Assembly (NCBI RefSeq): GCF_019575955.1
Contig: NZ_CP080575.1
Location: 1,302,001 to 1,366,000, forward strand
Length of the DNA: 64,000 nt
From: Nesterenkonia pannonica
Lineage (GTDB): Bacteria > Actinomycetota > Actinomycetes > Actinomycetales > Micrococcaceae
Direction: 5' to 3'
Shown: positions 1,715 through 8,041 of the stretch, piece after piece
How positions within the stretch are numbered: the first letter of the stretch is position 1
How the letters are laid out: each line of letters begins with the position of its first letter
The notes under the pieces: generated by a model
Database searches by the model: none
What the model saw: only the letters and a program-made list of their open reading frames with translations
What the model was told of the DNA's origin: nothing
Program-made: the position numbers and the translations under genes

Positions 1715-1741
1715 CCATCCGATCTCTGCGCGGCACCGAAC
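1715..1741 (+). promoter_or_regulatory. SigK-type promoter upstream of fasciclin gene
   Basis: CCATCC at 1715-1720 and CCGAAC at 1736-1741 are separated by 15 bases. This resembles the SigK promoter described in mycobacteria (CCATCC at -35, CCGAAT at -10). A second copy with a 16-base spacer lies at 4140-4167, and a SigK-like sigma gene lies between them. The remaining leader up to the start at 1813 has no other obvious signal. Confidence 0.7.
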
Positions 1742-1812
1742 AGCAGGTACGCAGGCCGCAGACAAGGATGTGAAGGCGGCCTGTCCCCACAGTTCTATAG
1801 GAGATTTCAGCC

Positions 1813-2586
1813 ATGAACACCCACATGCGCACGGCAAGCAAGTTCCTGGGAATCGGCACAATCGCCCTGCTGGGTCTGACGGCCTGCAACGACGGGGCGG
1901 CGAGGATGCGCCCGAGGAGGACCAGGACACCACCCAGACCGATGAGGACATGACCCAGGACGAGCCCATGGATGATGAGGCTTAGCACCGAGGGGGACAT
2001 GGACGACGAGGACATGGATGAGGACGCCGACCAGGACATGGAGGAAGGCGCCGAGGACAGTGCGGACGAGGAGATGGACCCAGCCGCCAACCTCGTCGGC
2101 CCAGGCTGTGAGGCCTACGCCGAAGAGGTCCCCGAGGGTGACGGATCAGTCGACGGCATGGCCCAGGACCCAGTCGCCACCGCAGCCTCGAACAACCCCA
2201 TGCTCACCACTCTCACCAGTGCCGTGTCCGGGGAGCTGAACCCAGACGTGGACCTCGTGGACACCCTCAACGGTGACGAGTTCACCGTTCTCGCCCCAAC
2301 GGATGACGCCTTCGGCGAAGTGCCCGAGGAAGACCTGAACGCGCTCGCCGAGGACGCTGAGGCGCTCAACGATGTGCTCACCTACCACGTGATCCCGGGC
2401 CAGATGGACCCGGATGAGATCGAGGGCGAGCACGAGACCGTCAACGGTGAGATGGTCACCATCACCGGTGAGGGCGACGACCTGATGTTCGACGAAGCCG
2501 GACTCGTCTGCGGCGGAGTCCAGACCGACAATGCCGTGGTCTACATGATCGACGGCGTTCTGATGCCTGCGGCCTCCGAGGAGTAA
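1813..2586 (+). CDS. Acidic fasciclin-domain lipoprotein (MPT70/MPT83-like)
   Basis: Predicted secreted lipoprotein. The start at 1813 gives a basic N-terminus, a hydrophobic stretch [10 protein letters not shown] and the lipobox LTAC. A long Asp/Glu-rich linker follows, then a fasciclin (FAS1) domain with the hallmark blocks [19 protein letters not shown] and [12 protein letters not shown] at the C-terminus. A missing G near 1894 and an extra T near 1983 (GCTTAGC for GCTAGC) break the frame; repairing both gives about 257 residues. The homologous mycobacterial proteins MPT70 and MPT83 are SigK targets, and a SigK-type promoter lies about 70 bases upstream. The acidic linker suits a halotolerant cell surface protein. 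Role in the envelope is unknown. Confidence 0.85.
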
Positions 2587-2645
2587 CTCCTCCCTCTCCC
2601 TCTTCTCGGAAGAGCCGCACCGCGCCGATGCCCCTCGGCGCACCA

Positions 2646-2698
2646 GCGATGGCGGCGCCTCAGACTGTTCCTGCGGACAGGTCAGGCGCCGCCATCGC
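2646..2698 (+). terminator. Strong hairpin, likely terminator of the fasciclin gene
   Basis: A perfect 15-base inverted repeat (2646-2660 with 2684-2698) surrounds a 23-base loop that can itself form a short stem. It lies 60 bases after the fasciclin stop and before the sigma factor gene. There is no long T-run, as is common in GC-rich actinobacteria. Confidence 0.6.
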
Positions 2699-2776
2699 CT
2701 CATTGCAGAGAATTCGGAGCCGACGGCTCGCCCCAATCAGCTCGTGATCAGACCCCTCCCATGGCAAGCTTGAGAA

Positions 2777-3388
2777 ATGTCCCCACCCCACCCGCAGGAC
2801 GAGAGCCTCGGAGCCTCGTCGGCCTCAGAGGCAGAGCAGGATGCCTGCGGCGCACTGCTCGTGCGGATTCAGCGCCAGGACGAGCAGGCCTTCGAAACGC
2901 TGTACCGCGAGCACGGCAGCGTGCTTCTGGCCACTATTCTGCGGCTGGTGCGCAACCGGGCCCTGGCAGAAGAGGTCCTTCAGGATGTGTTCTTCGAAGT
3001 GTGGACCAGGGCGCACTCCTTCCGCGCTGAGGCTTGGCACAGGCCGGGCGTGGCTGACGACGATGTGCCGCCATGAGCGATCGACAGGGTGCGCTCCGTC
3101 CAGGCCCAGCAGAACCGCGACTTCGCCGAAGGCCTCAAGCAGGCCCCTGAGGTGGAGCCGGACATACAGACCGAGGCCCTGAACCACGTGGAGGCCATCC
3201 GTCTCAACACCGCTCTGAAGGGACTGCCCGCCGAGCAGGCGCGAGCGATAGCCATGGCCTACTATCAGGACCTGTCCCACAGCGAGATTGCGGCGGCGCT
3301 CAGCACGCCGCTGGGAACCGTGAAGTCACGAATACGAGACGGAATGAAGCGGCTGCGAGCCCAGCTGGAGGTGAACGATGCACGCTGA
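2777..3388 (+). CDS. sigK: ECF RNA polymerase sigma factor, SigK-like
   Basis: ECF sigma-70 factor. Region 2 is visible in AFETLYREHGSVLLATILRL and AEEVLQDVFFEVWTRA; region 4 in LKGLPAEQARAIAMAYYQDLS and ALSTPLGTVKSRIRDGMKRL, a helix-turn-helix. Two frame changes near 3030 and 3075 interrupt the linker (joined reading RAWLTTMCRH, then AIDRVRSV). Its stop overlaps the start of the anti-sigma gene, so the pair is co-translated. The SigK assignment rests on the RskA-type partner, the fasciclin lipoprotein and molybdopterin oxidoreductase neighbours, and the two CCATCC/CCGAAC promoters. Orthology with mycobacterial SigK is inferred, not tested. Confidence 0.8.
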
Positions 3389-4135
3389 TCACGAATACCT
3401 CGCGGCTTATTGTGCTCGGCGGCCTCACGCCCGAGGAGGACGCAGCGGCACAGTCCTCTACGAGGCAGACACGGACTTCCAGCTCGAGGTCGCCGCATTC
3501 TCCGAGACCATGGCGGCGCTCGCCGAGTCCGACGAGCCCGTGCAGCCCAGCGCCGATCTTGACACGGCCATTCTGGGCATACCGAGCCGGACTGCGGTGG
3601 ACCGCCCCGCACGCACCGACAGCGCATCGGAGGCCGAGGTCAGCCCCGGCCGGCGCGCTCGGGCCTACCCGCATCACTGGCCTCTTCGCTCTGGCTGCGG
3701 CCACGCTTGCGCTGGTCGCCGCAGCCCTGGGCGTGCTGCTGGTGAATCAGATCAACCAGATGCAGCAGGTGGAGGAGTCGCTCACCGCGGAGGAGCAGCG
3801 GCGGGAGCAGATGGAGCTGCTCCTCGGAGCCCCTGATCTCTCGGCTGAGCACGCCGAATCTGCCGTGGGCGGGAGCGTGACGGTCACCTACTCGCTGGAT
3901 GCGCAGATGATCCACATCGTGCCCCACAACCTCCCCGCGCCCTCCGAGGACCAAGCCATGCAGATGTGGCTCATCGGGGAGGAGGGCCCTCAGAGCCTGG
4001 GACTGATGAGCGGCGACGGCTCGGAGATGCTCGCGGCCGTAGAGCTTGACGAAGGCGCGGCATTCGGCGTCACCATCGAACCGTCGGGAGGCTCCTCAGC
4101 CCTCCGACGACCCCATCATTGTGGCTGATCTCTGA
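3378..4135 (+). CDS. rskA: RskA-type membrane anti-sigma factor
   Basis: Anti-sigma factor of the RskA family. The N-terminal cytoplasmic part reads HEYLAAY, then LGGLTPEEDAAAQ after a frame change near 3412. A single membrane helix (FALAAATLALVAAALGVLL, about 3690-3745) is followed by a coiled segment and an extracytoplasmic RskA domain with MIHIVPHNLP and MQMWLIGEEGPQSLG. Further frame changes lie near 3460, 3660 and 4095; the repaired end reads DDPIIVADL with a stop at 4133-4135. It overlaps the sigma gene by 11 bases. By family, it would hold the sigma factor at the membrane until regulated proteolysis releases it. Confidence 0.82.
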
Positions 4136-4139
4136 TCCG

Positions 4140-4167
4140 CCATCCGAGCAGGCCCACGGCTCCGAAC
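4140..4167 (+). promoter_or_regulatory. SigK-type promoter upstream of molybdopterin oxidoreductase
   Basis: CCATCC at 4140-4145, a 16-base spacer, then CCGAAC at 4162-4167, matching the site before the fasciclin gene at 1715. It overlaps the end of the anti-sigma gene only by position, lying just after its stop, and sits immediately upstream of the oxidoreductase, so the transcript leader would be very short. Confidence 0.65.
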
Positions 4168-4174
4168 ACCGGTC

Positions 4175-5736
4175 ATGACCCGAACTGACCCTCACCCGGA
4201 GCATCACCGAGCCTGCCAGCTGCGCGGCGGCCGGAATCGCGGCGGCCGCCGTCTTTCTGGGAATCGCGGACGTCGTCGCCCGGTTCTTCGCGCCTTCCTC
4301 CTCGCCGCTGGTCGCCCTCGGGAACACCATCATCGGGGCATCCCCGCCCGGGCTGCAGGAATTCGCCATCTCGGTGTTCGGGAGCAGCAACAAGCTGGTG
4401 CTGTTCCTCAGCATGGGCCTCGGCGGGCCGCCGCAGCGGCGCTGATCGGCATGCTCGCCCGGCGCAGCCTTGGCCTGGGAGCCGCCGCTTTCGCCGTCGT
4501 CGCCGCCTCACTGGCAGCCGTGGTTCTGACGCGCCCGGACGCAGGACCGGCAGATGCTGTGCCCACACTCACAGGTGCGGCCTTGGGAGTCTCCCTGCTG
4601 GCTGCCCTGATCCTGACGGCGTGGAGCGCAGCGACACGGTCGCAGGCCGATGCGGTAGCGGAAGCTGCGGCCTCGCGGCGAGCGTTCCTCGGACTGGCGG
4701 CGGCTTACACCGCCGCTGCGGGGTCTCGTTCGCCCTGGGACGCTCCGTGCGGACATTCGGCCGCGAAGCTGGGGAGCCGTCGGACGCCTGGTCCTGCCGT
4801 CACCGGCGGTTCGTGCGGCCATCGTTCCGGAGTCCGCATCATCCGGCGCAGCGGGGCTGCGCCCTTCATCACCCCCAACTCGGACTTCTACCGCATCGAC
4901 ACCGCACTGGCCGTCCCGGAGCTGCACTCGGACGAGTGGACGCTGCGCATCCACGGACTGGTGGAGAACGAGGTCATGATCGATATGCATGAGCTGCTCG
5001 AGCTGCCGCTGGAGGAGCACCACATCACCCTGACCTGCGTGTCCAACCCCGTCGGAGGGGATCTGGTGGGCAACGCATCATGGCTGGGATACCCGGTCCG
5101 GCAGCTGCTGGCCGAGGCGGGACCCTGCCGGAGGCCGACATGGTGCTCTCGCAGTCGATCGACGGATTCACCGCATCCACGCCTCTTGAGGCACTGACCG
5201 ACGAGCGCAGCTCACTCCTTGCCGTCGGGATGAACGGTGAGCCCCTGCTTACTGAGCACGGGTACCCGGCGCGCCTGGTCGTGCCCGGCCTCTACGGATA
5301 CGTCTCAGCGACCAAATGGGTGGTTGACCTGGAAGTCACTCGCTTCGACCGCGAGACGGCCTATTGGACCGACCGTGGGTGGGACGAACGGGCTCCCGTC
5401 CTCGTCGCCTCACGCATCGAAGTGCCCAGCCCTCTGGAGACTCTGCCCGCAGGCGACGTGGTGATCGCAGGCAGTGCGTGGGCTCAGCACGTCGGCGTCG
5501 AGCGCGTGGAGGTGCAGATCGACGGCGGTGAGTGGGAGTAAGCAGAGCTGAGCTCTGAGGTGTCGATCGACACCTGGCGTCAGTGGCGACACATGTTCTC
5601 CGATGCTCAGCCCGGACGGCATTGGGTGTCAGTGCGTGCCATCAGCGCCAACGGTGAAGTCCAGACCGGGGACCGCCGGGACCCCATACCGAACGCGGCC
5701 ACGGGCCGCCACCGCATCGACTTCGAGGTGCAGTAG
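4175..5736 (+). CDS. Membrane-anchored molybdopterin-dependent oxidoreductase (sulfite oxidase fold)
   Basis: The N-terminal third encodes several hydrophobic segments (AAGIAAAAVFLGIADVVA, LGLGAAAFAVVAASLAAVV, GVSLLAALILTAWSA). The catalytic part has the molybdopterin-binding fold of the sulfite oxidase/YedY group: PFITPNSDFYRIDTAL, WTLRIHGLV, then ITLTCVSNPVGG, where the Cys is the expected molybdenum ligand. A C-terminal Ig-like dimerisation domain follows (VERVEVQIDGGEWE, RHWVSVRAIS). Frame changes lie near 4190, 4430, 4725, 4800, 5120 and 5538. The start codon ATG at 4175 needs a frame change soon after it. Electron donor and substrate are unknown. The SigK-type promoter places it in the sigma factor's regulon. 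Confidence 0.8.
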
Positions 5737-6546: not shown

Positions 6547-6570
6547 CAGACGCGCCGACCGGCGCGTCTG
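6547..6570 (+). promoter_or_regulatory. Perfect 10-base hairpin in helicase leader
   Basis: CAGACGCGCC, loop GACC, GGCGCGTCTG. It lies about 60 bases before the helicase coding region. It may be a leader structure for a cold-induced helicase or a terminator for unseen upstream transcription. The 6398-6633 interval contains no gene that I can support. Confidence 0.4.
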
Positions 6571-6633
6571 TGACCAGCCAGAGGCCCGTCGCACCTTCGC
6601 GGATTGATCTGGCACACGCGGAAAGGCACCACC

Positions 6634-8041
6634 ATCTCCACCCCCACCATCACCGAGTCAGAGCAGTCTGTCTCCGCCGAAACCGAGCAGCAGACATTCG
6701 CCGACCTCGGAGTCCCTGCACCCTGACGCGCAGCCTGGCCGCCGAAGGCAAGTTCATCGCCTTCCCCATTCAGGCTGCCACGCTCCCTGACACCCTCCAG
6801 GGCAGGGACGTCCTCGGACGCGGCAAAACCGGCTCGGGCAAGACCATCGCCTTCGCCCTGCCCCTCGTCGCCCGACTGGGCGAGAGCGGCGCCGAGCGGA
6901 AGCCGCGCAGGCCCAGGGCACTGGTCCTGGCGCCCACCCGTGAGCTTGCAACCCAGATCGACGCCGTCATCGCGCCCCTGGCCGAGACCTACGGCATGAC
7001 GACCGCCACCATCTTCGGCGGCGTGAGCCAGAAGCCGCAGGAGAAGGCCCTGAACAGAGGCGTCGACATCGTCGTGGCCTGCCCAGGCCGTCTGGAGGAC
7101 CTGCTGAAGCAGGGCGTGCTGAACCTCGACAGCGCCGCCGTGACCGTCCTGGACGAAGCAGACCACATGGCCGACCTCGGCTTCCTTCCCGGCGTCACCC
7201 GCATCCTGGGGCAGACCCCGGCGGACGCGCAGCGGCTCTTCTTCTCCGCCACGCTGGACAACGGCGTCGACAAGCTCGTCAAGCGCTTCCTGACCGACCC
7301 CTGCACCACTCCGTGGACGAGGCGACGAGCCACGTCTCCGCCATGACGCACCATGTCTTCGAGGTTCACCCGGACCGCAAGAAGGACCTTGTGCATGAGC
7401 TGGCGTCCGGGCAGGGCCGTCGACTCCTCTTCACCCGCACCAAGCACCAGGCGAAGAACCTCGCGAAGAAGCTCGCAGCGCAGGGCGTCCCCGCCGTCGA
7501 CCTTCACGGCAACCTCTCCCAGGCCAAGCGCGACAAGAACCTGGCGGCCTTCAGCGACGGCTCGGTGCGGGTGCTCGTTGCCACCGACGTGGCCGCACGC
7601 GGAGTCCACGTCGACGAGATCGAGCTCGTCGTCCACGTCGACCCGCCCGCAGAGCACAAGGCCTACCTCCACCGCTCAGGACGCACCGCACGAGCCGGAA
7701 GCGCTTATGACGTCGTCACAGTGATGCTGCCCGAGCAGCGACGCGACACCGAATCGCTCCTGCGCAAGGCCGGCGATCAAGGTCAAGCTTACGGCAGTCT
7801 CCACGGACTCCCCGGAGGTCACCGCCCTGATCGGTGAGCGAGCTGCCTACGTGGAGCCCGCACCGGTGCAGCCCAACGACAGCCGCGGCGGCGGCCAAGG
7901 ATCGCGACGCGGCGGCGGCGGAGGGCGCAGCGGCGGCCGAGGTGCCCGCGCAGCGGCTCCGGAGGCGGCAGCAGCAGAGGCGGACAGTCGAGGAACTCAC
8001 GCGGCGGCCGCGGACGCCGCAGCTCCTCGCCCGGAGCCTGA
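6634..8041 (+). CDS. DEAD-box RNA helicase, frame interrupted
   Basis: ATP-dependent RNA helicase. The core motifs are in order: FPIQAATLP (Q motif), GRGKTGSGKT (Walker A, motif I), APTRELATQ (Ia), LDEADHMADLGF (DEAD, motif II), FFSATL (SAT, III), HGNLSQAKRD and VLVATDVAARGVHV (V), HRSGRTARAG (VI). The C-terminus is a Gly/Arg-rich tail typical of RhlE-like actinobacterial helicases that bind RNA non-specifically. Frame changes lie near 6722, 7303, 7775 and 7970; the repaired tail ends RRSSSPGA with stop at 8041. The start is unclear: a GGAAAGG ribosome site precedes ATC at 6634 where ATG would be expected, so the first codon may be misread. Confidence 0.88.

Follow-up and report, generated by a model that had tools for sequence, protein, structure and literature searches.

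Near its start, the window (the 64-kb stretch of the Nesterenkonia pannonica assembly GCF_019575955.1 that was analysed) carries genes for a SigK-like ECF sigma factor and an RskA-type anti-sigma factor between those for a FAS1 lipoprotein (fas) and a membrane molybdopterin oxidoreductase (MO). This arrangement, proposed by an earlier sequence-only reading, was supported by the domains listed in Table 1, and the matching CCATCC-N15/16-CCGAAC sites described before both flanking genes were recovered as exact matches. The gap between rskA and MO is 39 nt, and the MO ATG lies 7 nt past the -10 hexamer. The suggestion of an MPT70-like target was borne out through the N. haasae ortholog of fas, to which the window copy is 76% identical and which matched MPT70 (1nyo) at E 2e-53. 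The locus thereby has the composition of an mpt83-sigK-rskA cassette, with an MPT70/83-like FAS1 lipoprotein gene beside sigK-rskA and a SigK site upstream, and the RskA with an RskA_C domain by which SigK is recognised is adjacent to the sigma factor.

Table 1. Genes and promoter sites of the locus (positions in the window).
Feature	Position	Strand	Details
SigK-type promoter of fas	1715..1741	+	-35 CCATCC 1715-1720, N15, -10 CCGAAC 1736-1741; exact match
FAS1 (MPT70/83-like) lipoprotein gene fas	1813..2586	+	signal with lipobox LGLTAC; PF02469
SigK-like ECF sigma factor gene sigK	2777..3388	+	sigma-70 regions 2 and 4; best NCBIfam model NF007228
RskA-type anti-sigma factor gene rskA	3378..4135	+	PF10099 RskA_C E 2.7e-22; start overlaps sigK stop
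SigK-type promoter of MO	4140..4167	+	CCATCC-N16-CCGAAC; exact match; begins 5 nt past rskA stop
Membrane molybdopterin oxidoreductase (MO) gene	4175..5736	+	four TM helices, twin-arginine SRRAFLG, TM5, PF00174 domain (in two ORFs)

All four genes change frame in this assembly, an observation absent from the sequence-only reading. The frame of fas breaks at about 1890-1975, sigK contains two compensating breaks at about 3035-3078, rskA is read in three frames, and MO, compared with its N. haasae ortholog, in at least three; all four genes are intact in N. haasae. The assembly is a single contig with a completeness rating of 62%, and an unrelated DEAD-box helicase in the window is likewise split. 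The broken frames are most likely an assembly error.

The best NCBIfam model for the broken window sigma was NF007228 (SigK) with 136.8 bits, below the cut-off of 226. The intact N. haasae sigma, whose best PDB match was SigK (4nqw), reached 178.9 bits and four more Nesterenkonia sigmas 179-187.5, all again below 226. In the sigma tree, Nesterenkonia and Brevibacterium were grouped at 100/99 and joined with Actinomyces at 94/84; the link from that group to the clade containing mycobacterial-type SigK had a support of 94/88, which falls short of the star threshold. Cys133 and Cys183 are present in 94% of ECF18 and 56% of ECF19, the ECF groups of SigK, according to an excerpt of PMC7509140. When these positions were placed by alignment to 4nqw, they held A and Q, H, S or D in 28 of 29 Nesterenkonia rows (same-genome repeats included), the remaining row being gapped; both cysteines were kept only in the Mycobacterium-like rows (7/7) of the alignment, and many other SigK rows had S and C. 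A redox-cysteine model of SigK was rejected for the Nesterenkonia lineage because both cysteines are absent. The earlier assignment to SigK stood in part: SigK is the best family and RskA is adjacent, but the sigma scores below the cut-off, lacks both cysteines and, judged by sequence, represents a lineage sister to classical SigK and not a clear ortholog.

MO fits the plan of Sco3746-type membrane MoCo proteins, with a TM bundle, an RR motif before the last TM and a MoCo domain. For these proteins, an excerpt of PMC5449189 describes five TM segments, a twin-arginine before TM5, a C-terminal molybdenum-cofactor domain and dual Sec/Tat insertion. The twin-arginine and the cofactor cysteine, which lies in CVSNPVGG of the PF00174 domain, were invariant in 15/15 orthologs. 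In contrast to the description of Sco3746, which places TM histidines for two haems b in TM2-4, a simple hydropathy scan found no histidine inside the predicted N-terminal TMs of six Nesterenkonia MO orthologs; they thus lack the residues that Sco3746 is predicted to use as haem b ligands, and an electron relay via haem b in the membrane part was unsupported. MO shares the PF00174 domain and cofactor cysteine with MsrP (YedY), SoxC, SorA and SorT but differs from them in being membrane anchored, and the intact N. haasae protein reached none of their curated NCBIfam cut-offs (SoxC, the best match, 89.1 of 420; SorA 86.1 of 600; SorT 69.1 of 570; MsrP 62.8 of 207 bits), so that its activity is putative. 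A structure prediction for MO, with a mean pLDDT of 59.5 and a pTM of 0.36, was too poor for a fold search. The MO tree placed Nesterenkonia and Brevibacterium in one supported group (SH-aLRT 100), with Brevibacterium paralogs inside.

A sigma ortholog was found in 19 of 30 Nesterenkonia genomes. Among these 19, fas and MO were each present in 18, compared with one each among the 11 genomes without the sigma, and co-occurrence with the sigma gave a Fisher p of 4e-6 for either gene, with phylogeny ignored. Both sites were within one mismatch in 18/18 Nesterenkonia genomes that have both genes, and both were exact in 14 of them. Because the MO start codon lies 7-8 nt past the -10 in Nesterenkonia genomes, a leaderless MO mRNA is predicted. 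At 17/17 Nesterenkonia MO loci besides the window, the motif (<=2 mismatches) was followed by an in-frame start at this distance, and the spacer sequence diverged while the hexamers and the distance to the ATG were fixed. The leaderless geometry and its spread to unlinked MO genes had been missed by the sequence-only reading. The motif was absent within 300 nt upstream of all 17 other Nesterenkonia ECF genes, for which the loci hold just 171-350 nt of upstream sequence.

When the window was shuffled, sites of a wider N13-18 form occurred 0.12 times on average, and two were reached in 1 of 100 shuffles. Genome-wide, we identified five exact sites with N15-17 spacers (two in the reverse-read control) and four with N15-16 (one in the control); two of the five lie at the locus and the other three within or against open coding-like frames, in agreement with the expectation of few sites elsewhere. 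The description of the regulon as self-contained holds for exact sites in the N. pannonica genome, but other Nesterenkonia carry the motif before secreted proteins off the locus, and it is therefore species-specific. Because 39 exact sites were present in the 11 sigma-less Nesterenkonia genomes, a motif scan alone is too unspecific and was rejected as a regulon detector. Of about 94 exact off-locus sites in the genus, 64 were examined, of which 38 fell within called genes, 17 preceded a gene and nine did neither; nine off-locus sites examined in sigma-less genomes were distributed as five inside a gene, three before a lipoprotein or secreted protein and one in neither position.

To compare genera, we counted MO genes in which the motif (up to two mismatches) is followed, 7-8 nt past the -10, by an in-frame start codon; the groups were our own compilation and were restricted to loci where the MO start is complete. 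This geometry was found in 68 of 139 genes, compared with a mean of 0.23 and a maximum of 2 for 26 permuted motifs. One permuted control, the motif shifted by one base, had its peak (25 genes) at a different distance, as a change of register predicts. The geometry was present at 24/25 Brevibacterium MO loci, at 6/6 MO genes in a sister genus, g2, where they are unlinked (six of the seven genomes seen), and at 17 of 28 MO loci from 22 genomes of a Streptomyces-like genus (f5g9); it was absent from 30/30 MO genes (of 35 matches) in a Mycobacterium-like genus (f6g10), from 8/8 linked loci of f84/g244, from 6/6 Brevibacterium MO paralogs and from 12/13 other unlinked MO genes. The labels Mycobacterium-like and Streptomyces-like are inferred, with SigK type among their bases. 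A separate promoter set (17 Nesterenkonia and 20 Brevibacterium) had been preselected for the motif, and the 139-gene count is the fairer one. Synteny across the Micrococcales, as anticipated, was supported in other members such as Brevibacterium, where MO is located upstream of fas and has the same promoter geometry; sites of the exact type were found ahead of fas at just 10 of 29 Brevibacterium loci. The motif occurred within 300 nt upstream at 14/30 Micrococcaceae SigK loci, and an exact copy lay in the 1.5 kb upstream of just 7/30 classical SigK loci across the phylum. These distributions suggest that the same SigK-MO wiring recurs in several actinobacterial lineages, and we did not observe it in the mycobacteria-like genomes covered here.

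SigK is familiar as a stress switch of tuberculosis bacteria. In Actinomyces, dipZ, a membrane redox protein gene, lies beside sigK behind the same motif (exact in L042, one mismatch in L068); dipZ is a mycobacterial SigK target, and its chemistry is of the thioredoxin/DsbD type whereas that of MO is based on molybdenum. The mpt83-sigK-rskA cassette has been described in Mycobacterium and even in Yersinia (PMC7509140, in excerpt, citing Veyrier 2008). Of the compact locus that the sequence-only reading presented as a departure from mycobacteria, the fas-sigK-rskA part, which unites the genes of a FAS1 lipoprotein, a sigma and RskA and has a SigK site before the FAS1 gene, is thus already published, and the MO arm appears to be new. 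The locus differs from the published cassette in its additional MO target with its own leaderless-type promoter, which the Mycobacterium-like MO genes examined lack, and in its sigma lineage. Among the matches listed in the open-licence literature, a SigK-MO link was absent from titles and abstract openings, and an earlier description is possible.

Based on the genes, motifs, spacing, conservation and co-occurrence read from these genomes, we consider it likely that the locus is a SigK-type cassette whose two local outputs, fas and MO, are raised together by one switch. The membrane anti-sigma RskA would hold the sigma until an envelope signal arrives, and the freed sigma would direct RNA polymerase to both sites. 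From the first, fas would be transcribed, probably with sigK-rskA behind it, giving positive feedback; from the second, in the gap after rskA, MO would be transcribed as a leaderless mRNA with the A of its ATG as the predicted 5′ end. MO would be a membrane-anchored, putatively Tat-exported, outward-facing member of the sulfite oxidase/MsrP superfamily. A FAS1 surface lipoprotein and an extracytoplasmic molybdoenzyme would thus be raised jointly, probably so that oxidised sulfur compounds of the envelope can be repaired or detoxified.

The sites could instead be real promoters read by another ECF sigma. In favour of this, two other Nesterenkonia genomes (L133, L134) encode an additional sigma that resembles classical SigK and has the same motif, and the unlinked g2 MO genes keep the site where no relative of the locus sigma was found at E 1e-35. 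We consider this quite unlikely, given that the next ECF match in the N. pannonica genome is just 35% identical, that sigma, fas and MO co-occur, and that in six of the seven g2 genomes examined a classical SigK scores over the cut-off. Less probable still is a fortuitous second site, with MO transcribed just as the final member of a fas-sigK-rskA-MO operon: MO does follow rskA without a site of its own in the f84/g244 relatives (0/8), but the fixed hexamers and ATG distance amid diverging spacers in Nesterenkonia and the promoter-bearing MO upstream of fas in Brevibacterium argue against this.

It is also improbable, though somewhat less so than either of these, that the module is decaying in this strain, with genuine frame breaks that make its genes pseudogenes. 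Such decay would account for frame changes in all four genes at once and would accord with the absence of the sigma from 11 of 30 Nesterenkonia genomes and with Nesterenkonia G027, which retains sigK-rskA without fas and MO; the 62% rating of a one-contig assembly, the split helicase, the 44-77% identity that the main alignment segments of each gene retain with its intact ortholog and the two exact promoters speak against it.

Under the preferred reading of one switch with two outputs, the fixed -10-to-start distance would be a cross-genus example of a promoter that dictates leaderless translation of one regulon member, unlike the other member, fas, whose leader would span about 70-100 nt. The proposal of an ancestral redox module is plausible, being compatible with the distribution. 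More tentatively, a main, perhaps original, job of SigK-type sigmas across Actinobacteria may be to use a hard-wired leaderless promoter for the co-expression of an MPT83-type FAS1 lipoprotein and a Tat-exported molybdoenzyme; mycobacteria would have lost the molybdoenzyme arm, and the SigK signal would be the envelope oxidant or oxidised-sulfur stress that the enzyme relieves. The start signal of the SigK cascade is described as still unknown in an excerpt of PMC7509140. A conserved enzymatic partner, with a promoter link not found in the Mycobacterium-like genus, provides a clue to this signal that is testable in harmless genera, and the substrate of MO, once found, would probably reveal the stress.

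The locus under study has the order fas-sigK-rskA-MO, in which fas encodes a FAS1 (MPT70/83-like) lipoprotein, sigK a SigK-like ECF sigma factor, rskA an RskA-type anti-sigma factor and MO a membrane molybdopterin oxidoreductase. The two matching promoters that the sequence-only reading had proposed for the flanking genes are both present as exact sites. In the window assembly (G000; 2.70 Mb, one contig, completeness rating 62%), the frames of all four genes are broken. Unrelated genes are also split, at 6570-7837 of the window and elsewhere; one example, identified by eye, is a DEAD-box helicase. Such splits agree with indel errors of the assembly. Because this unrelated helicase is split and N. 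haasae (L006) carries all four genes intact, we read the breaks in the locus as assembly error rather than decay.

Coordinates of the locus features and of DipZ-like genes in Actinomyces loci (L042, L068)
Feature	Position	Context
CCATCC-N15-CCGAAC, exact	1715-1741	upstream of fas
CCATCC-N16-CCGAAC, exact	4140-4167	upstream of MO
fas, FAS1 lipoprotein gene	1813-2586	within locus 1715-5736
SigK-like ECF sigma gene	2777-3388	within locus 1715-5736
RskA-type anti-sigma gene	3378-4135	within locus 1715-5736
MO, membrane molybdopterin oxidoreductase gene	4175-5736	within locus 1715-5736
DipZ-like gene behind SigK-type site, adjoining sigK	L042:4339-6096	Actinomyces; site exact
DipZ-like gene behind SigK-type site, adjoining sigK	L068	Actinomyces; site with one mismatch

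The comparator for the motif is what we take to be the mycobacterial SigK consensus, a string not found in the literature searched. Five exact sites (N15-17) occur in the G000 genome, two at the locus and three inside or directly against open coding-like frames; the reverse-read control gave two. Across 30 genomes of the genus (N15-16) there were 128 exact sites versus 5 in the control. Because the 11 genomes without the sigma gene still hold 39 exact sites, the motif by itself is no proof, and the weight of the evidence is on site position and conservation. A sigma ortholog (at least 57% identity) was found in 19 of the 30 genomes, accompanied by fas in 18 and by MO in 18; among the 11 others, fas (near a contig end) and an MO relative (52% identity) each occurred once. 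Where both fas and MO are present, both promoters are exact in 14/18 genomes and within one mismatch in 18/18, and the spacers between the hexamers vary widely. The motif lies within 1.5 kb upstream of 7/30 classical SigK loci of the phylum and 14/30 SigK loci in Micrococcaceae (reverse-read control, 0 in both). Within 300 nt, the numbers were 3 (n = 30), 14 (n = 30) and, for other Nesterenkonia ECF genes, whose loci contain just 171-350 nt of upstream sequence, 0/17.

In the window and in all 17 other Nesterenkonia genomes with both sigma and MO, translation of MO is set to start 7 or 8 nt past the −10 hexamer. Because bacterial transcripts begin about 7-8 nt past the −10, the sequence predicts that the MO mRNA should begin at its ATG. 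For fas, the eighth base past the −10 is A in 23 of the 25 exact-site loci of Nesterenkonia and Brevibacterium, and the gene starts ~70-100 nt beyond it. We scored this geometry (≤2 mismatches, in-frame ATG/GTG at 7-8 nt) in 139 MO genes, window excluded, in groups that we compiled. It was present in 68: 17/17 in Nesterenkonia, 24/25 in Brevibacterium, 6/6 in the sister genus g2 (same family), 17/28 in a Streptomyces-like genus (f5g9), 3/6 other linked loci and 1/13 other unlinked MO genes. It was absent from Brevibacterium MO paralogs (0/6), f84/g244 relatives (0/8) and a Mycobacterium-like genus (0/30). Zero mismatches were seen in 16/17, 18/25, 0/6 and 3/28 genes of Nesterenkonia, Brevibacterium, g2 and f5g9, respectively; no match to fas, sigK or rskA was found in the stretches retrieved around the g2 genes. 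The distance was 7 nt in 54 genes and 8 nt in 14, every other distance from 0 to 40 nt occurred in at most 5 genes each, and 26 permuted motifs at 7-8 nt gave a mean of 0.23 genes (maximum 2). In f84/g244, MO is placed behind rskA and may be transcribed from the fas promoter, which is found at 0-1 mismatch in 5/8 loci.

The best NCBIfam match of the sigma factor is the SigK model, at 136.8 bits; the intact N. haasae ortholog, whose best solved-structure match is SigK 4nqw, scores 178.9 bits, also below the cut-off of 226. A tree built from 81 ECF sequences, where the closest sequence (87% identity) is from the same genus, unites Nesterenkonia and Brevibacterium in one group (support 100/99) that adjoins Actinomyces (94/84), and this assemblage joins the clade with mycobacterial-type SigK (94/88, under the support threshold). 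From these sequence comparisons, we call the sigma factor SigK-like, a sister lineage. PMC7509140 reports that SigK requires Cys133 and Cys183 for activation; both are substituted in 28/29 Nesterenkonia alignment rows (one row is gapped). Because only Mycobacterium-like rows of our alignment retain both, their absence is common outside that genus. By analogy with a natural cysteine-free SigK (Nocardia) described there as active without RskA activation, RskA may here be a plain inhibitor.

The SigK-MO neighbourhood recurs in Brevibacterium (order MO-fas-sigK-rskA), in other Micrococcales families, and in Dietzia and Segniliparus. The site precedes MO in most Brevibacterium loci, and an exact-type site precedes fas in 10/29. 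In f5g9, a fas, sigK or rskA match lies within ~1.5 kb of MO in 20/28 loci. In the sigma tree the linked state is scattered across the two main branches, and in the MO tree the groups run along lineages; an ancestral link followed by losses would fit this pattern, and so would repeated joining. Four Gordonia loci (L051, L055, L056, L059) carry an exact site ~4-5 kb upstream of sigK, with no fas or MO match within the locus.

Other Nesterenkonia genes also lie behind the motif. A form ending GCT-CCGAAC precedes a secreted ~270-aa protein that has a hydrophobic stretch at the C terminus and matched nothing in Pfam (2 members tested) in genomes L135, L137, L140, L141, L142, L144 and L146-L150; the protein occurs in 12/30 genomes (11 with a SigK-like sigma, plus G028, which has fas) and was not found in G000. 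A large acidic lipoprotein (full copies ~460-485 aa; no Pfam match above cut-off, 2 members tested) follows the motif in L133, L134, L152 (cut by the contig end) and L154, adjoining a second, classical-SigK-like sigma in L133 and L134. Members of a family of small hydrophobic proteins (81 aa, C-terminal QIGQFQQ) lie downstream of the motif in L136 and L143, with a related sequence in L139, and an NRPS-like gene (named by eye) is next in line in L136 and L151.

In MO, helices at the N terminus are followed by a PF00174 domain that carries the cofactor cysteine (CVSNPVGG), and a twin-arginine motif precedes the last helix; this layout agrees with the Sco3746-type dual Sec/Tat membrane proteins of PMC5449189. 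Transmembrane histidines predicted there to bind haem b were not found in six Nesterenkonia MO orthologs. Most relatives of known structure are sulfite oxidases or sulfite dehydrogenases; the intact N. haasae ortholog matched SoxC (89.1 bits), MsrP (62.8 bits), SorA and SorT, far under all four cut-offs.

The fas-sigK-rskA part corresponds to the mpt83-sigK-rskA cassette with a conserved SigK site already published, Yersinia included (PMC7509140). No SigK-molybdoenzyme link was found in the titles and abstract beginnings of the literature searched. Actinomyces has a DipZ-like gene (DsbD_TM, Redoxin, Thioredoxin_10) ahead of sigK and behind a SigK-type site, and dipZ is a mycobacterial SigK target. 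Because MO neighbourhoods occur in several lineages and DipZ-like genes in Actinomyces, membrane redox enzymes are recurrent SigK neighbours. The observation is thus confirmed, and sequence comparison gives good support to the regulatory reading; with the cassette itself known, what is new is its second output, MO, and the hard-wired start of that gene.
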